A stretch of DNA of 64,000 nt from an uncultured Flavobacteriaceae bacterium (GTDB lineage: Bacteria > Bacteroidota > Bacteroidia > Flavobacteriales > Flavobacteriaceae), in assembly GCA_947502975.1 (NCBI GenBank), contig CANNBV010000006.1, forward strand, positions 1 through 64,000. Direction: 5' to 3'. Positions 43,968-52,820 of this stretch are shown one piece after another; the first letter of the stretch is position 1; the number at the start of each line of letters is the position of its first letter. Made by a program: the position numbers and the translations under genes. Below the pieces are notes generated by a model. That model was given only the letters and a program-made list of their open reading frames with translations, was not told the origin of the DNA and searched no databases.

Positions 43968-44711
43968 ATGAATTTATCTAATTATATAGACTACACATTT
44001 TTAAAGCCAATTGCTACAGAAAGAGATATTATAAATGTATGCAAAATTGCAAAGGCAAACTCCTATTTTTCGGTATGTATTAATGGCTGTTATGTAAAAT
44101 TAGCTAAAGAACTTTTAAAAGATACTCAAGTAAAAGTATGTACAGTTGTTGGGTTTCCTTTAGGTGCTTCTTCTACACAAAGTAAAATAGCTGAAGCCAC
44201 CAATGCTATTGAAGATGGTGCCGACGAAATAGATATGGTTATCAATTTAGGATACCTAAAAAGTAGAAATTATGTTTCTGTTTTAAGAGATATCTCTGAT
44301 GTGAAACGTGCTATAGGTGATGTTACTTTAAAAGTTATTATTGAGATTTCTGAGCTTAATAAAAATGAAATAGTCAAAGCTTGTGAAATAGCTGTTGATG
44401 CTAATGCAGATTTTGTCAAAACCTCTACTGGATTTGCTTCAGGAGGCGCAACATTTACCGCTGTGAAAATCATGAAAAAGACGGTAAAAGATAACGCTAA
44501 AATAAAAGCATCTGGTGGTGTTTCTGATTTTGAGACTGCCGTTAAATATTTAGAGTCTGGCGCTGATAGAATTGGTACATCTACTATGTTAAAACCTGAG
44601 AAAGATACGCTTCAAAAACGTAATTCTAAAATCTATAGACGTTATATGGAAACGTCTCAAAGAAGCGAAGTATCTCTTGAAGTTTTAAAAGATATTAAAG
44701 TAAAACTTTAA
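43968..44711 (+). CDS. deoC: Deoxyribose-phosphate aldolase
   Basis: DeoC splits 2-deoxyribose-5-phosphate into acetaldehyde and glyceraldehyde-3-phosphate in deoxynucleoside salvage. The 247 residues fit. The class I Schiff-base lysine is in DFVKTSTGFASGGAT (about 150), with a second lysine in IKASGGVSD (about 180) and an acidic D in DEIDMVINLG (about 90). IDYTFLKPIATERDI at the N terminus is characteristic, with F in place of the more usual H of DHT-L. Monocistronic and convergent with pxpC; the two ORFs overlap by four bases. Confidence 0.92.
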   Translation: MNLSNYIDYTFLKPIATERDIINVCKIAKANSYFSVCINGCYVKLAKELLKDTQVKVCTVVGFPLGASSTQSKIAEATNAIEDGADEIDMVINLGYLKSRNYVSVLRDISDVKRAIGDVTLKVIIEISELNKNEIVKACEIAVDANADFVKTSTGFASGGATFTAVKIMKKTVKDNAKIKASGGVSDFETAVKYLESGADRIGTSTMLKPEKDTLQKRNSKIYRRYMETSQRSEVSLEVLKDIKVKL

Positions 44712-45556
44712 TCTTTTAGTTTAAAACACACTTTGCTACCTGTATACTTTTGTGCCAAGGTATTAATTGCACTTTCGGTTAGCTGCAGTACTCTCGGGTA
44801 ACCTCCCGTTGTTTGACAATCACGCATCAAAATTATCAGTTTGCCGGATGGTGTTAACTGTACAGTTCCTGGTAATACTGGAGATGTAATGATCGGCTCT
44901 AAAGTGTTTTCTAGAGCTTCTTCAAGTTGATACGCCATCCTACTATTATCTTTTGAAATTGTAAATAGTTCTGAAAACAATTTATCTTTTTGAACCTCTG
45001 TTAAATTTTCAAATTCTGGAGCTTTATAAACATCTAGATTTGAGTTTTTTATATAGGAATCATTCATCTTTAATCCAGAAAAGTGTTTCTGATATTTTGG
45101 ATTATTTTGATTAATCCTTAATACATCTTCTTTATTAATACAAGCAAATTGAGTTACACCTTTATACATACTCTTACTGCCTAAAACCTCTTTAGTTTGA
45201 AAGCCTCCGATAACAGATAAATAACTCCTAAAACCTGAATTCAACCTCCCAAAACTTAAAACATCTCCTTTGTTAATAATAATAAATCGATTATAGTCAA
45301 GTGATTTTCCATTCAACGACGGAGCCATATCTGCTCCTGTAATAGCAATTGCAGAATTACATTCAAATTTCAACTTTGGTCCGCTCATTGTAATTTCTAG
45401 TACCGCAGCTTCTTCTGAATTTCCGACTAAAACATTTGCTAATCTAGTAGCTCTTTGATCCATAACTCCAGAAATAGGCACACCATGATGCTGAGCACCT
45501 AGTCTCCCAATATCTTGGATACTAGAATAAAACCCTGTATTTAAAACCCTAACCAT
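44708..45556 (-). CDS. pxpC: 5-oxoprolinase subunit C (biotin-dependent carboxyltransferase-like)
   Basis: PxpC is one of three subunits of the prokaryotic ATP-dependent 5-oxoprolinase, which opens pyroglutamate to glutamate. The 282 residues and motifs (VRVLNTGFYSSIQDIGRLGAQHHGVPISGVMDQRATRLANVLVGN; LIILMRDCQTTGGYPRVLQLTESAI) match the AHS2/KipA domain. Its start overlaps the pxpB end by eight bases, and it is last in the unit nramp-pxpA-pxpB-pxpC. The C terminus overlaps the deoC stop by four bases. Confidence 0.92.
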   Translation of the reverse strand: MVRVLNTGFYSSIQDIGRLGAQHHGVPISGVMDQRATRLANVLVGNSEEAAVLEITMSGPKLKFECNSAIAITGADMAPSLNGKSLDYNRFIIINKGDVLSFGRLNSGFRSYLSVIGGFQTKEVLGSKSMYKGVTQFACINKEDVLRINQNNPKYQKHFSGLKMNDSYIKNSNLDVYKAPEFENLTEVQKDKLFSELFTISKDNSRMAYQLEEALENTLEPIITSPVLPGTVQLTPSGKLIILMRDCQTTGGYPRVLQLTESAINTLAQKYTGSKVCFKLKD

Positions 45557-46280
45557 GAATCACCTCACTTTCTATTTGATACACTCCTGCATTAACTAAC
45601 GTTTTGATATCACTAAACTCTTCTAATGTAATTGAATAAAACCGAAGACTATCTCCTGCCTTAGCAAAGCAAGGTTCTGTTTTTAAAACGTCAAAAAAAT
45701 GAATTGGAGAATTACCGATAATGTTCCATCCACCAGGGCTTTCATTCGGATAAACCCCAGTTTGCTCACCTCCAATAGCTACAGCTCCCTTTTCAATCTT
45801 TAATCTTGGTGTCTTTCGCCTAGGTGCATAAAGCGCTTTATCTAGACCGCCTAAGTATAAAAATCCAGGTAAAAAACCTATAAAGAAAATTGTATAAATT
45901 GGCTTGGTATGCTTCTTAATTATTTCATCTACTGTGATTTGTTTTCCTTTTGAAAGTACTTTTAAATCTATTCCAAAGCTTTCATGATAACATACCGGTA
46001 TTTTCCATAATGTATGTGATATTTTTTTTGAGATGTCTGATGATTGATATATTTCCTTTAATAAATGTACTTCAGAAGAAAAATTAAAACATCCTTCATT
46101 AAATATAATTATAAGTGAAGCATAAGCATGATTTAAACTTTCAATACCTAAAATATTGGCTTTCTCTAATTTTGATTTAAACGTGAGAATATCATTAAGA
46201 ATAGATTTGTCTATTATTTGCGGCCATTCTACAAGAATCGAATTCGCTCCGTATTGTTTGTATTTCAATTGAAACTTCAC
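45549..46280 (-). CDS. pxpB: 5-oxoprolinase subunit B
   Basis: A 243-residue AHS1/KipI-domain protein. FIGFLPGFLYLGGLDKALYAPRRKTPRLKIEKGAVAIGGEQTGVYPNESPGGWNIIGNSP is diagnostic. Together with PxpA and PxpC it hydrolyses 5-oxoproline. The Bacillus homologue KipI was first described as an inhibitor of the kinase KinA, but the three-gene context here supports the metabolic role. It starts two bases after pxpA and overlaps pxpC by eight bases, so all are translated from one message. Confidence 0.92.
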   Translation of the reverse strand: MKFQLKYKQYGANSILVEWPQIIDKSILNDILTFKSKLEKANILGIESLNHAYASLIIIFNEGCFNFSSEVHLLKEIYQSSDISKKISHTLWKIPVCYHESFGIDLKVLSKGKQITVDEIIKKHTKPIYTIFFIGFLPGFLYLGGLDKALYAPRRKTPRLKIEKGAVAIGGEQTGVYPNESPGGWNIIGNSPIHFFDVLKTEPCFAKAGDSLRFYSITLEEFSDIKTLVNAGVYQIESEVIHG

Positions 46281-46282
46281 CT

Positions 46283-47026
46283 CTACTGAATACTTATACC
46301 TTTAAATTGTAAGGCGCTTTTCAATCTATTTACCAATCCTATAGCTTTAGGATTATCACCATGTACACAAAATGTTTGTGCCTTAATTTTAATGTGTTTA
46401 CCAGAAACTGTCTTAACTTCTCCGTTAGAAATCATTCTAAAAACATGATCAAAAACTTCATTTTCATCATATAAAACTGCATTTTTTTCCTGTCTAGGAA
46501 CTAATGTTAAATCATTATTATAATTTCTATCTGCAAAAGCTTCATAAACTATAGGAATTCTATTTTTAATTGCAATTTCAGCTATAACAGAATTGTAAGG
46601 TACATACAAATGCACTGGTAAATGCATGGCTTTCATAACCTCAATAATAACTGTTGCAATTTTAGAATCTGTCATGGCCATATTGTACAGCGCACCGTGA
46701 GGTTTTACATGATGTAACGTAACGCTTTGTTCCTTCAAAACATCAACTAAACTATTAACCTGATCTTCGATAGTTTTAAATAATGCAGCACAAGGCATAT
46801 CCATTGGAAGTCTCCCGAAATTCTCAACATCAGGAAATGATGGGTGTGCACCTATTTTTACTTTATGAGTCTTAGCTAGTCTTATTGCTTCCCGCATTGT
46901 ATTTTCATCTCCTGCATGGCCGCCACAAGCAATATTGCAAGATGATATTAATGGCATTAGTTGGGCTTCATTACCTATACCTTCTCCTAAATCTGCATTT
47001 ATATCTATTGACAATTGTTGCATCAA
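46283..47026 (-). CDS. pxpA: 5-oxoprolinase subunit A (LamB/YcsF family)
   Basis: A 247-residue LamB/YcsF protein. The start LSIDINADLGEGIGNE, SCNIACGGHAGDENTM, KIGAHPSFPDVENFGR, HVKPHGALYN, and CVHGDNPKA near the C terminus are the conserved metal- and substrate-site motifs. It overlaps the transporter gene upstream by four bases (ATGA). The operon order transporter-pxpA-pxpB-pxpC resembles the Bacillus subtilis ycsF-ycsG/kipI-kipA locus. Confidence 0.93.
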   Translation of the reverse strand: MMQQLSIDINADLGEGIGNEAQLMPLISSCNIACGGHAGDENTMREAIRLAKTHKVKIGAHPSFPDVENFGRLPMDMPCAALFKTIEDQVNSLVDVLKEQSVTLHHVKPHGALYNMAMTDSKIATVIIEVMKAMHLPVHLYVPYNSVIAEIAIKNRIPIVYEAFADRNYNNDLTLVPRQEKNAVLYDENEVFDHVFRMISNGEVKTVSGKHIKIKAQTFCVHGDNPKAIGLVNRLKSALQFKGISIQ

Positions 47027-48252
47027 AATAAATTCAAATGAAACACTTTATTTAAAGCTGCTAATGCCAAAAGTACACTAATTAAAAAAATCAGTCCACC
47101 AAAAACATTATGAAGTATCGTATTTTTATAAGTACCTAATAGTGCCTTTCTATTCATAATCCAAAGTAAAAAACCAGCAATAATAGGGAGCAACACACCA
47201 TTAGCTACTTGTGCAAATTTAATAATTTGAATAGGTTTTAAACCAGAAGACGACAGTACAACACCTAAAACTAAAATAACTATCCAAACCATTCTAAATC
47301 GTGAAGACTTTAGGTTTGAGTGCCATCCTAAACATCCAGTTGCAACATATGCTGCTGCTAATGGTGCTGTAATAGCACTTGTAATACCAGCTGCAAATAA
47401 ACCAATAGCTAAAAAATATTTTGAAAAACTACCAAATAATGGTTCTAAACCTAAGGCTAAATCTGCTGCATTTGTTACATCATTACTTTTAATAACTGTT
47501 GCAGAAACAATAATACTCATAGAAACCAAACCGCCTAAAACTATTGCTATAACTGTATCTTTTCTAGCATATTTTAAATCATCTGGGTTACTCCATTTTT
47601 CTTTAACCAAGGAAGCATGTAAAAATAAATTGTAGGGTACAACTGTCGTACCAATTAAAGCTACAATCATTAATGTACTCCCATCAGGAAATTTTGGGGT
47701 TAATACCCCTCGAAATAGCTCTGTAAGATCTGGTTGCGTTAAAATTGCTGTAGTTAAAAAAGCGATACTCATTAATATTACTAGACCTATAAGTGTACGT
47801 TCTAAGATTTTGTAATTACCAATGTACAATAAAATAAATGCTATAATACCTATAAGAAAACTGAAACCATTTAATTGAAAATTACCAAAATCTATTAATG
47901 ATTTTCCAAACAAAGTTTCTAAGCCTAAAACACCTCCACTAATATTACCGCCTTCATAAGCCGCATTTCCGATAACTATCGCAGCGAGTACTAAACCTAT
48001 TGATAAAAACTTAAGGAATGGTGTTTTTATCTCTTGTCGTATTACTTCAGATAATCCTTTTTGCGTCACCAAACCTAATCTGGCTGTCATTTCTTGAAGT
48101 ACAATTGTAGCAATTACCGATAATACCATTGCCCACAGTAGTGCAAAACCAAACTTTACACCAGCAAGCGTACAGACCGTAACTGTTCCTGGGCCAATAA
48201 AAGCAGCAGCAATCAAAGGCCCAGGACCAATATTTTTGAATAATTTTCTCAA
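47023..48252 (-). CDS. Nramp-superfamily transporter with altered metal site (probable 5-oxoproline operon transporter)
   Basis: A 409-residue polytopic protein of the Nramp superfamily with about 11 helices. In metal-transporting Nramps helix 1 carries DPGN and helix 6 MPHN. Here the aligned sequences read IGPGTVT (G20, T23) and TVVPYNLFLHASLV (V in place of M, Y in place of H). All direct metal-coordinating side chains except the backbone are therefore lost. It lies in one transcription unit with pxpA, pxpB and pxpC (four-base overlap). I infer a non-metal substrate, possibly 5-oxoproline. Databases will label it a divalent metal transporter. Confidence 0.8.
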   Translation of the reverse strand: MRKLFKNIGPGPLIAAAFIGPGTVTVCTLAGVKFGFALLWAMVLSVIATIVLQEMTARLGLVTQKGLSEVIRQEIKTPFLKFLSIGLVLAAIVIGNAAYEGGNISGGVLGLETLFGKSLIDFGNFQLNGFSFLIGIIAFILLYIGNYKILERTLIGLVILMSIAFLTTAILTQPDLTELFRGVLTPKFPDGSTLMIVALIGTTVVPYNLFLHASLVKEKWSNPDDLKYARKDTVIAIVLGGLVSMSIIVSATVIKSNDVTNAADLALGLEPLFGSFSKYFLAIGLFAAGITSAITAPLAAAYVATGCLGWHSNLKSSRFRMVWIVILVLGVVLSSSGLKPIQIIKFAQVANGVLLPIIAGFLLWIMNRKALLGTYKNTILHNVFGGLIFLISVLLALAALNKVFHLNLF

Positions 48253-48275: not shown

Positions 48276-51200
48276 CTATTTTAATTGACTTAATAATTCA
48301 TCTACTGCCTTTTTAAGTTGTGTGTCTTTTTGTTTTGCTTTATCATCTGGATTATTATCGACAATAATGTCTGGAACTGCTGGCCCTAATTCCATATTTG
48401 ATTTAGTTGCTTTTACATACCAACCTCTAAAAGGCATTCTTATAAAAGAACCATCTATTAACCCATTCCCGCCAGTAGAAATTACAGCTCCAAATGTTGG
48501 TATGCCAACCAAAGTACCAATATCTAATGTTTTGTATGCATGTGAAAATATCTCTGCATTTGAATAACTATTCTGATTACATAAAGCAATTGATGGTTTT
48601 GTCCAAGATGCCAATGGTAAGCGTTCACTATATGGATAATGTCCTGTAAATTTTGTTTGTTCGGCTTTTAAATCTTTGGCAGCACCTCGGGGCACTGTAT
48701 ATGCATGTTGCTTTACCGTTAATACTGCCATGAGGTAATCTGTAGTCCAGCCGCCACCATTAAACCTCACATCAATCACAATCCCATCTTTACCTAGTCC
48801 TGCGGCGGTCAATTCGCGCTCAAAACGTTCAAAGCTGGTCCAATTCATACCTTGAATATGGATATACCCTAATCTTCCATTAGAGTATTGCTCCGTTAAA
48901 CGTTGACGTTCTTTTACCCAAGCATTATAATTTTCAGCACGGTTACTACTTTTTGGTCTGATTACGATCTCTTTTGAACTACCTCCACGATCAACTTCAA
49001 GATATATTTTTTCGTTAGAAGTACCTTCTAACAATTCGTAAACATTTTTAGTCTTATCGAGAGCATAACCGTTTACTGCTGTAATAATATCACCAACAAA
49101 CATTTGACTTGAACTTCTGTCTCCAGGCATTGCAGGTACAACTGATATTACTTTTAGATGCCCTTTTGATGTTGGTTCTAATTCAACACCTAATAATCCA
49201 GTGCGTTCTCTTTCTAAATCTTCTCTAGTTTCAACGCGATATAATCCCATATGGCTCGCATTAATCTGACCTAACATCCAATTAAAAATCGTCTGAAAAT
49301 CACTTCGTGTGGAAGCGTTCAAGGCTAATGACTCGTATTTCTTTCTTAGATTCTCCCAATTTTGCCCATGGAAATCCGGATCGTAAAACCCGTCATTGAT
49401 GGCTTTCCAGGCTTCATTAAATATTTGTTGAGATTCAATATTATAATCTATATCCATCTTAGCAGAAAATGATAACGCTTCCATTTTATCACTAGACATA
49501 TTAATACTTGATACACTACCCCCTCTTTTAGTTAAATAAATTTTAGAGTTCTTTTTATCTTTAGCTAAATTTGATGGTCTTGTATTTTTAGAGGTTAATG
49601 ATTTTTTATCATTTCCATCCCATTTTATTTTGAATAGATCAGATTCTGTATCAGCATTACCCCTACTACCATTACCAGTTGTGTAATAAATGGTTTTTGA
49701 ATCTTTGGAAAACAACTGCCCGAATTCACCGCCAGTAAAAGAAGTCACTTGAACTTGACGTTCATGAATGTCGTCAAAATCAATAACAACTGGATTTACT
49801 TTTGGAGTTTTATCTTTTTTACTCGTATCACCTTTTTTATCGTTCTTTTTATCGCCTTTCTTGGCTTTGTCATCATCGGTATCTTCTTCCCAATCTTGAG
49901 TTGTTTTTTCCCAATCAGCTTTTGCTAACCATGTAAACCACACATCATAATCACTATTATTTCTATTAGATGAAAACATCAATTTTTTACCATCTGGACT
50001 CCATACTGGTCCTCGATCTTGTTTAGGGTGCATTGATATATTTACAGGTTTTTCACTATTATCAGCTTTGTGAATATAAATTTCAGAATTAAAATCTAAA
50101 TCACTTAAGCTATAAGCTAACCATTTAGAATCTGGAGACCAGGACACATTGCTTGCAGTTGCCCAACCATCTAACATCGTCTTTTTGTTAGAAAGCTTAC
50201 CATTATTATCGATATTAGCAACCATTAATTTTCCTCTTCCTAAATTATATACAATTGACTTTCCATCTGGAGATATCACTGGATTATTTTCATTATCAGA
50301 AGTTTTTGTGAGCCTCTCAATTTTGTGCTTTAGTGTTTTAAATAAATCACTTTCATTTGCATTATTAGATCTCACCAAATACATATCTTTTTGTCCATCT
50401 CTATCAGAAATAAAAAGTAAAGTAGTGTCATTTATCCATGTGGCATCAGTATCTCTAAAAGATGATCTTGTTAGGTTTACTGTTCGCTTTTTATCTTTTG
50501 AAGTTTCTCGAATAAACACTTCACCTCTAATATTAATTGCTGCATATTTTCCGTTAGGTGAAATAGAAATTTCGTCCACATCGTTACTATACGTTTTATG
50601 CACCACAGGGTTGAATCTATAATCAGATGCAATATTTATAGCAACTGCTTGTTTAGCTTTTGTTTGAGCATTAACTAAAAACACCTTATCACCTTTAACT
50701 GCAACTATATCTTTACCATTTCTACTGATCTGAAATGAAAAAATGCCCATGTCTGAAAAATCAGTGATTTGCGAAATATTACCTTGCTTGGCTCCAGCAT
50801 CACTGATAGTCATTTTATGAACATTGTATTTTCCTGATCTCGAAGACTGAAAATAAATGGTATTATCATCGCCCCATTGTGGATAAAAATCGTTGCCATC
50901 ATAATCTGTTAACTTCGTATAGCTATCATTCTTAATGTTGTATAACCAAACATCTCTATTTGCTGGACCTCTGTAAGTTTCGCGTTCTAGCCTACAACTC
51001 CCTTTCACAAAAATCAAAAAATTACCATTGGGTGATAATGCAGCATCAAAACCAGTAGCATCTAAATAGCGTGTTGGTGTGCCACCATCTTCACTCACAA
51101 TGTGTGTTTCAAATTCACGTTCAACTTGAACAAAATTGCGTCTTGTAGAAAATAGAAGGTTACCTTCAGGTGTGTAGTCGGTTATAATATCTGCGGTTGA

Positions 51201-51518
51201 GTGATACGTAATACGCTTGGGTGTACCTCCAGAAGCTGGCATTAAGAACACATCATTATTACCGAAACGTTCACTTATAAATGCAATAGATTTCCCGTCT
51301 GCGCTCCAAACAGGTTTGGTATCGTAAGCTTCATGAACAGTAAGTCGTTTTGGATTTGAGCCATTAATAGCACTCGTCCAGATATCACCTTGGTAATTAA
51401 ATGCAATGGTTTGTCCGTCTGGACTGATAGTAGGAAAATTAATTAAAGGATTTTGGGCTATTCCTAAACTTGCAAATAGTATAACTACAAGTTTGAAAAT
51501 TGCTGATGGTAGTTTCAT
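48276..51518 (-). CDS. Tricorn-like S41 peptidase with beta-propellers and PDZ
   Basis: A 1080-residue secreted protease (signal MKLPSAIFKLVVILFASLGIA). Tandem PD40/WD40-like propeller repeats fill about 25-540 (SPDGQTIAFNYQGDIW, SADGKSIAFISERFGNNDVF). A charged low-complexity linker (DDDKAKKGDKKNDKKGD, about 545-575) and a further propeller part follow. A core domain, a PDZ (about 760-850; VISVVPAMPGDRSSSQMFVGDIITAVNG) and the S41 C-terminal protease with GIVIDVRFNGGGWTTD and nucleophile S in NSYSNAEIFSHA (about 980) complete it. It degrades peptides, as in archaeal tricorn. Its stop is 23 bases before the Nramp-like gene. Confidence 0.93.
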   Translation of the reverse strand: MKLPSAIFKLVVILFASLGIAQNPLINFPTISPDGQTIAFNYQGDIWTSAINGSNPKRLTVHEAYDTKPVWSADGKSIAFISERFGNNDVFLMPASGGTPKRITYHSTADIITDYTPEGNLLFSTRRNFVQVEREFETHIVSEDGGTPTRYLDATGFDAALSPNGNFLIFVKGSCRLERETYRGPANRDVWLYNIKNDSYTKLTDYDGNDFYPQWGDDNTIYFQSSRSGKYNVHKMTISDAGAKQGNISQITDFSDMGIFSFQISRNGKDIVAVKGDKVFLVNAQTKAKQAVAINIASDYRFNPVVHKTYSNDVDEISISPNGKYAAINIRGEVFIRETSKDKKRTVNLTRSSFRDTDATWINDTTLLFISDRDGQKDMYLVRSNNANESDLFKTLKHKIERLTKTSDNENNPVISPDGKSIVYNLGRGKLMVANIDNNGKLSNKKTMLDGWATASNVSWSPDSKWLAYSLSDLDFNSEIYIHKADNSEKPVNISMHPKQDRGPVWSPDGKKLMFSSNRNNSDYDVWFTWLAKADWEKTTQDWEEDTDDDKAKKGDKKNDKKGDTSKKDKTPKVNPVVIDFDDIHERQVQVTSFTGGEFGQLFSKDSKTIYYTTGNGSRGNADTESDLFKIKWDGNDKKSLTSKNTRPSNLAKDKKNSKIYLTKRGGSVSSINMSSDKMEALSFSAKMDIDYNIESQQIFNEAWKAINDGFYDPDFHGQNWENLRKKYESLALNASTRSDFQTIFNWMLGQINASHMGLYRVETREDLERERTGLLGVELEPTSKGHLKVISVVPAMPGDRSSSQMFVGDIITAVNGYALDKTKNVYELLEGTSNEKIYLEVDRGGSSKEIVIRPKSSNRAENYNAWVKERQRLTEQYSNGRLGYIHIQGMNWTSFERFERELTAAGLGKDGIVIDVRFNGGGWTTDYLMAVLTVKQHAYTVPRGAAKDLKAEQTKFTGHYPYSERLPLASWTKPSIALCNQNSYSNAEIFSHAYKTLDIGTLVGIPTFGAVISTGGNGLIDGSFIRMPFRGWYVKATKSNMELGPAVPDIIVDNNPDDKAKQKDTQLKKAVDELLSQLK

Positions 51519-51606: not shown

Positions 51607-52740
51607 TTACAAACTAGAAGAGTTTAAGGCATAAATAGCAAAACTGCCTAACCAATGTCCGCCCATATAATCGTCACCAAAAATACTTGGCAAGGAATAA
51701 TTGATATGTTGATTAGCTACTGATTTAAGGTGTTTATATTCAGGCAGGTCTTGAGCTATTTTAAACAAATTCCAAGCACGCGAAAAATTAACACCATCCA
51801 AATGCACTAAATGCCCATCTGTCCTATCGGATACTACTCCAACTTCAATATTAAAATTTTTGTTTTTCAATTGAGGTAAAAATGTGTCTAACCAAATCTT
51901 GTAATCATCTGTTGGCAATAAACGTTTCATCAATGCTGCTTCTTCTAAACAAGGGGACAAAAAATCACTTCCGCTAGGCTCCCATGTAATAGGACATCCT
52001 GTATCATTTTTATAAAAATACATAGCACGCTCTTTTATGGCGTGTTGTAAAGCTTCATGGTTTACTGTTGTAGCATAATCGTATGCAAAAGACAACCCAA
52101 AAGCTGTATTAGTATGTGTTCCCACACGTTGTGGATAATTTAATTTTGGTAAAAATGTGATGTATTTATCAACAATTAAATCAGTTAGCGGTTGTAAATT
52201 GTTTTCTAATAGTCGTGCCGTGTCATCATCCCAAGTATGCAGTTCCTCCGCAAGTTTTAAAAGCCAAGCCCAACCATAAGTGCGCTCATAAGATGTGTTA
52301 TGTTTTCCATGAAAATATGCAACTTCTGCTTCTATATTTTCTTTTGAAATGTTATGGAGTAAGCGTTGTTTTATATCATCTGAATGCTTAATATTGGGAA
52401 ACGATTTTAATAAACTCACCAAACTCCAGTGTCCGTGAACAGAAGAGTGCCAATCAAAACAACCGTAAAATGCGGGATGTAATTCAGTTGGAGGTCTTAA
52501 ATCATCGTCACCTCCTAGAGTTTGAGATAAACGGTTTGGATATTCAATATTAATACAGTGCAATGGTAATTCAGCTAGTTTAATTGCCTGCGCCTCATCT
52601 AATCGTGTAATTTCTGTACTGATTTTTGAATTTACGTTGAACGTTTCTTCTGAGTTTAAATTTTCTGATGCTTTGGATGCTTTAGAATTTTCACATCCTA
52701 AAACCAAAATAAAAATTATAATATATCTGATTTGCTTCAT
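51607..52740 (-). CDS. DUF2891 lipoprotein
   Basis: A 377-residue lipoprotein from the ATG at 52740 (MKQIRYIIIFILVLGC); the track start 22 codons earlier would bury the lipobox. The DUF2891 fold is helical, an alpha/alpha-barrel type: CFDWHSSVHGHWSLVSLLKSFP, YERTYGWAWLLKLAEELHTWDD, LNYPQRVGTHTNTAFGLSFAYDYA and GDDYMGGHWLGSFAIYAL. The conserved D, H and W residues suggest a glycan-active or related enzyme, but the activity is not known. 88 bases upstream of the tricorn gene; divergent from the GH2 gene. Confidence 0.85.
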   Translation of the reverse strand: MKQIRYIIIFILVLGCENSKASKASENLNSEETFNVNSKISTEITRLDEAQAIKLAELPLHCINIEYPNRLSQTLGGDDDLRPPTELHPAFYGCFDWHSSVHGHWSLVSLLKSFPNIKHSDDIKQRLLHNISKENIEAEVAYFHGKHNTSYERTYGWAWLLKLAEELHTWDDDTARLLENNLQPLTDLIVDKYITFLPKLNYPQRVGTHTNTAFGLSFAYDYATTVNHEALQHAIKERAMYFYKNDTGCPITWEPSGSDFLSPCLEEAALMKRLLPTDDYKIWLDTFLPQLKNKNFNIEVGVVSDRTDGHLVHLDGVNFSRAWNLFKIAQDLPEYKHLKSVANQHINYSLPSIFGDDYMGGHWLGSFAIYALNSSSL

Positions 52741-52820
52741 TAGTTTTGTTTTTGAACAATACTTACATGTTTTTGAAGATATGTGACCTATATAATTTAA
52801 GCCCACGTTTCTTTATACAA

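Follow-up and report, generated by a model that had tools for sequence, protein, structure and literature searches.

A conserved clade of Nramp-fold proteins without the canonical metal ligands keeps company with oxoprolinases and probably imports 5-oxoproline

Analysis of a 64,000-nucleotide stretch of DNA from an uncultured Flavobacteriaceae bacterium (the window, by which we mean the whole stretch) revealed a transporter gene, coupled to the genes of 5-oxoprolinase (PxpABC), whose product belongs to a clade of Nramp-fold proteins that we call clade X. Because this branch is devoid of the metal-binding residues and is found in nearly constant company of oxoprolinase genes, the window protein is most likely an importer of 5-oxoproline (pyroglutamate) or of a very close lactam amino acid, a reading that we consider probable from the combined analysis of its site and genome context. 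A sequence-only reading had proposed a carrier for an organic acid such as 5-oxoproline rather than for a metal, and context and the neutral site make this the best reading, although the missing DPGN motif by itself excludes no metal. The genes concerned are as follows.

44708-45556, minus strand: pxpC-type subunit (CT_A_B), under the PxpC equivalog cut-off
45549-46280, minus strand: pxpB, 5-oxoprolinase subunit B, from family matches
46283-47026, minus strand: pxpA, 5-oxoprolinase subunit A, with its start at TTG 47026 or ATG 47023, overlapping the transporter stop
47023-48252, minus strand: clade X Nramp-fold transporter (proposed 5-oxoproline importer), 409 amino acids, TTG start
48276-51518, minus strand: exported peptidase of tricorn-like/S41 type, lying upstream of the transporter at a distance of 23 bases
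51607-52806, minus strand: DUF2891 protein, a probable lipoprotein that likely heads the operon; its true start is likely about 52740

The three oxoprolinase genes lie downstream of the transporter and on the same strand, with PxpA and PxpB clearing their NCBIfam cut-offs and PxpC assigned to the right family. The TTG start of the transporter is preceded by GAGGAAA, and its TGA stop codon sits within the TTG/ATG start of pxpA (TTTTGATGCAA), giving a stop/start overlap of 1-4 bases (TTTTGATG). Coupling of the transporter to pxpA, as first read from this DNA, is thus upheld, and the tight spacing recurs among relatives, with an overlap or a gap of at most 30 bases in 64 of the 68 measurable pxp-linked clade X loci. 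The S41 peptidase gene lies immediately upstream of the transporter only in the window and its close relatives (L005, L009 and L030), standing between the DUF2891 gene and the transporter in the window, L005 and L009, and its exported product may supply peptide-derived input to the 5-oxoproline pathway.

The 409-residue protein matches the Pfam Nramp family (PF01566) with 309 bits and scores over the cut-off of the NCBIfam model NF037982, 'divalent metal transporter'. We read its metal-site residues off an alignment to BfraNramp (10ky), which located the following motifs.

48184-48195, minus strand: helix-1 break motif GPGT (residues 20-23) replacing DPGN, from the alignment; the structural model breaks the helix here
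47944-47958, minus strand: helix-3 motif YEGGN (residues 99-103), from the alignment
47629-47649, minus strand: helix-6 break motif TTVVPYN (residues 202-208) replacing the MPHN region, from the alignment
47368-47382, minus strand: helix-8 motif TSAIT (residues 291-295), with S292 and T295 clade-invariant, from the alignment

The Asp and Asn of DPGN are represented by G20 and T23, and the Met and His of MPHN by V205 and Y207 with P206 between them, confirming the earlier observation that GPGT stands for DPGN and VPYN for MPHN within a retained Nramp frame. The replacement is wider than had been stated, because the helix-3 Glu, a canonical Slc11/Nramp feature (E134 in DraNramp; E116 in BfraNramp, where it binds Mn, PMC12873925), aligns with N103 of the window protein.

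We gathered 132 signature-carrying relatives, whose sources are Bacteroidota genomes, plasmids of haloarchaea and a pair of plasmids from proteobacteria; a plain contig scan hit Bacteroidota alone, and we therefore widened the sample by searching whole genomes and records of plasmids. Viral contigs were also searched, and no relatives of the window protein were found in them. G20-P21-G22, N103, T202-T203, V205, Y207-N208, S292 and T295 are invariant in all 132, part of these residues being the rule by which the relatives were selected, and we therefore retested them using a profile stripped of its motif columns. This motif-blind profile returned 112 proteins at 260 bits or more, and by our own count 111 of the 111 that cover helix 1 bear both motifs, so that the motifs are invariant in a clade defined without them and do not reflect chance. 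The profile does not separate the deeper members of clade X from other Nramp-related proteins, and deep membership therefore rests on the tree, a careful maximum-likelihood reconstruction in which 31 representative members form one clade with support 97/94. The window protein falls in this single clade and carries its signature (GPG[TS], helix-3 Y/F..N and TT[VI]V.YN), while paralogues in the window's own genome differ, one (L002) having GTGS and another (L003) being very distant. Metal-ligand replacement is without exception in clade X, every ligand position being neutral. We therefore rejected a decayed metal site, the residues being invariant across bacteria and archaea, and what had been described as a 'destroyed' site is instead an alternative one common to the whole clade. 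The separate status of clade X is new as far as we found in the literature.

The AlphaFold2 model of the window protein (mean pLDDT 92.6) breaks its helices at GPGT and VVPYN. In Foldseek searches the closest solved structures were Nramps and EleNRMT, at TM 0.8-0.85 (about 0.8 for DraNramp), such that the model has the Nramp version of the LeuT fold; beyond the Nramps the search also picked out amino-acid carriers, AdiC and ApcT among them, and in LeuT-fold amino-acid carriers the main-chain groups of unwound helices 1 and 6 bind the substrate (PMC5809530). A degenerate Nramp paralogue that transports nothing and plays a regulatory or structural part beside PxpABC would fit the loss of all canonical ligands, but it is highly improbable given that the predicted fold is intact and that the site is strictly conserved in bacteria and archaea with no signs of decay.

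Canonical Nramp/MntH proteins (DraNramp, BfraNramp) resemble the window protein in fold and overall sequence frame, whereas their ligands (DPGN, MPH and the helix-3 Glu) are all replaced in it. Many canonical Bacteroidota Nramps (in G021, G025, G057 and others) have open frames of about 625-650 residues against the ordinary 400-450, which suggests an additional domain. Turning to described groups, the available text of PMC10606218 (Cellier) reports for a Slc11 'orphan' outgroup a helix-1 change of D to G and N to T, V.Y in helix 6, a helix-3 Y and N at a spacing of four residues, and extra helix-3 glycines. These substitutions are the residues of clade X, and clade X is therefore, on sequence grounds, most likely this orphan outgroup, for which that text proposes no function and for which the genome context of clade X would supply one.

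Clade X genes lie close to pxpABC in about 100 Bacteroidota loci, including nearly all Flavobacteriaceae loci, and the four core clade X genomes in which the transporter lies away from pxpA each have pxpA elsewhere. Haloarchaeal members, 48-50% identical to the window protein and carrying GPGT with VGYN, have genes for HyuA and HyuB of the hydantoinase/oxoprolinase family directly downstream; HyuA and HyuB also adjoin the transporter in the Bacteroidota genomes G003, G008, G050, G058, G073 and G018, and a fused HyuA-HyuB protein of about 1280 residues abuts it in G108. Because HyuA/HyuB and PxpABC do not share a Pfam family, the link of the transporter persists while the enzyme changes, and HyuA/HyuB probably takes the role of PxpABC in these other lineages. 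That clade X is also linked, in archaea as well as bacteria, to a second family of oxoprolinases is new as far as we found in the literature. Among 198 Bacteroidota genomes, PxpA or HyuB is present in every one of the 48 with clade X (PxpA in 36, HyuB in the remaining 12), against 28 of the 150 without it, in a Fisher test that covers Bacteroidota and carries no correction for kinship, and whose p value overstates the independence of cases because the genomes share ancestry.

The enzymes also bear on the possibility that a related substrate is imported in place of free 5-oxoproline: a hydantoin or another lactam, glutamate, glutamine or a short pyroglutamyl peptide. Relatives of HyuA/HyuB include caprolactamase and N-methylhydantoinase (the nearest named models for the clade X-adjacent pair are caprolactamase and acetophenone carboxylase, both under cut-off), a gene of the Asp/Glu/hydantoin-racemase family comes next in two haloarchaeal operons, and the window operon includes an exported peptidase. 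Such a substrate is nonetheless quite unlikely: most loci pair the transporter with PxpABC, which is a 5-oxoprolinase (PMC13274462), and a single substrate that would suit both partner enzymes as well as the DUF2891 link is most simply 5-oxoproline. Two further arrangements were seen. In G053 (L086, 5415-9626) the transporter has DUF2891 on one side and a gamma-glutamyltranspeptidase on the other, pxpABC being found at another place on the same contig, and this arrangement suggests a path from gamma-glutamyl compounds to 5-oxoproline. Certain pxp loci with neither clade X nor the Nramp-like group described below (clade Y) have an MFS carrier inside or close by, which would fit a need for some carrier of organic solutes; at L172 (3993-7646) an MFS carrier between pxpC and pxpA is a different candidate 5-oxoproline importer.

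DUF2891, the family of the apparent lipoprotein at the likely head of the window operon, recurs upstream of the transporter in 55 of the 132 clade X loci, in many of them close by (for example L009, L010, L043 and L139), and opens the transporter-pxpABC operon or lies close to its beginning; it is also found upstream of the transporter and fused oxoprolinase of G108 (L105). In Campylobacter jejuni, cj0552-4 encodes DUF2891 together with DUF969/DUF979, and loss of the cluster abolishes growth on 5-oxoproline (PMC12795558). The DUF969/DUF979 proteins, a putative 5-oxoproline transporter, thus resemble clade X in accompanying DUF2891 and in being tied to 5-oxoproline use, whereas they are of other protein families and include no Nramp. 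A DUF2891 structure has been solved (8ieu), we found no function for the family in the literature, and as far as we found its link to the transporter and to 5-oxoproline is new. One DUF2891 reading frame (G047:C165:1582-2542) has four internal stop codons and is possibly a pseudogene.

In other Bacteroidota, pxpA is adjoined by a Nramp-like protein about 20% identical to that of the window and carrying GPGFLTQT and GGTVGGYI, which we call clade Y. The loci are as follows.

L163, L164, L165, L167 and L169: clade Y Nramp-like genes beside pxpA in other Bacteroidota
L162, 5528-6832, minus strand: Nramp match beside pxpA, left out of the tree

Clade Y relatives are also found in Bacillus badius, Moraxella, Klebsiella, Rhizobium and Deinococcus. 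The Bacillus badius order of pxpA, transporter and putative hydro-lyase fits the ycsF-ycsG-ycsI order of B. subtilis. On an Acinetobacter contig that also holds a relative the order is LysR, Nramp, LamB/YcsF, conserved protein, allophanate hydrolase and biotin carboxylase, which is that of the mum operon (compare PMC5050338). One record, the 328-kb L182 (CAKLQH020000001.1), is labelled 'Acinetobacter phage MD-2021a', holds a complete mum-type operon and resembles a bacterial chromosome contig. By Foldseek identity, a clade Y model is 63% and the window model 21% identical to the B. subtilis YcsG structure (9a52), and therefore clade Y takes in YcsG, MumT and PxpT, whereas the window protein falls in clade X, with YcsG placed by this Foldseek identity and PxpT solely through its published 50% identity to YcsG. 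In the careful tree X and Y form one clade in 4% of bootstrap trees, and holding them together is not rejected (p-AU 0.69). Orthology of the window protein with YcsG or MumT was rejected by identity and tree. PxpT of Corynebacterium glutamicum, YcsG/MntG of B. subtilis and MumT of A. baumannii likewise combine a Nramp fold, a helix-1 GPG and a place beside pxpA, whereas they differ from the window protein in identity, motifs and clade. The suggestion that Bacillus YcsG is its counterpart accordingly fell away, and as to the conservation of GPGT/VPYN in pxpA-adjacent Nramp homologues, the clade X form of these motifs (GPG[TS] and V.YN) was found throughout clade X, whereas clade Y has motifs of its own. 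Among the pxp-linked homologues, none was found with DPGN/MPHN.

Work on PxpT has already shown that a Nramp-fold protein encoded next to pxpA serves 5-oxoproline: growth on 5-oxoproline, or its use, depends on PxpT and on YcsG, and the authors say that metal transport cannot be excluded (PMC13274462). Mn2+ import has been concluded for YcsG/MntG because its overexpression raised Mn2+ and because of the phenotype of a triple mutant (PMC10448178); the same conclusion was drawn for MumT from Mn tolerance and a cell Mn content that falls on its loss (PMC5050338). These reports, together with the shared Pfam family and the NF037982 match, would suit an importer of divalent metal (Mn2+ or Mg2+) whose site is non-canonical and which provides for a metal-dependent oxoprolinase or for the whole cell, in which case the oxoprolinase linkage could reflect cofactor supply to the enzyme. 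EleNRMT, which is likewise Nramp-related, of similar fold (TM 0.83) and without DPGN/MPH, does carry Mg2+ and Mn2+ (PMC8806188), and a canonical DPGN Nramp is encoded by 2 of 48 clade X-positive against 63 of 150 other Bacteroidota genomes, a comparison confounded by lineage and family composition. However, NRMT keeps a helix-1 Asp (NDAGG), which clade X lacks, has no helix-6 Tyr-Asn and forms a separate clade, and its site (DxxG / TxxA,T) is absent from the window protein. In clade X all ligand positions, the helix-3 Glu included, are invariantly neutral, the genes linked to the transporter are those of DUF2891 and of two lactam hydrolases unrelated to each other, and the scans done found no recurring metal gene nearby. 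We found no canonical Nramp in the window's genome, which has other candidates for metal import, namely a binding protein of ZnuA type and two genes of ZIP type, and clade X coexists with a canonical Nramp in G018 and G073. Metal import is on this evidence unlikely, and the automatic name 'divalent metal transporter', already doubted in the sequence-only reading, is probably wrong for the window protein.

In the mechanism that we infer for 5-oxoproline import, which extends to substrate, pose, transport direction and any coupling ion, the protein would act as a secondary importer whose central pocket is neutral and polar where acidic and sulphur metal ligands would otherwise stand, formed by the broken helices 1 (GPGT) and 6 (TTVVPYN) with helix 3 (Y99, N103) and helix 8 (S292, T295). 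From the alignment and the helix breaks, the exposed backbone at the GPG break could hold the carboxylate, as in LeuT-fold amino-acid carriers, and Y207, N208, T23 and N103 could hold the lactam ring. Imported 5-oxoproline would then be converted to glutamate through ATP-driven hydrolysis by the PxpABC of the same coupled operon, or, in other lineages, probably by the HyuA/HyuB enzyme.

More broadly, we tentatively propose, with somewhat less than even confidence, that the Slc11 orphan outgroup of bacteria and haloarchaea consists of 5-oxoproline carriers that work with two unrelated oxoprolinases, that the Mn2+ phenotypes of MntG and MumT are indirect or secondary, and that DUF2891 is a further part of the 5-oxoproline pathway. 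This bears on the conflict by which proteins beside 5-oxoprolinase genes have been named both Mn2+ and 5-oxoproline importers, and on the 'divalent metal transporter' label that such proteins carry in many genomes. If true, DUF2891 becomes tied to 5-oxoproline use, a branch called an orphan outgroup of the Nramp metal transporters gains a candidate substrate, and the Nramp fold has served an organic anion besides metal cations, such that the switch of one fold between an organic anion and metal ions becomes testable.
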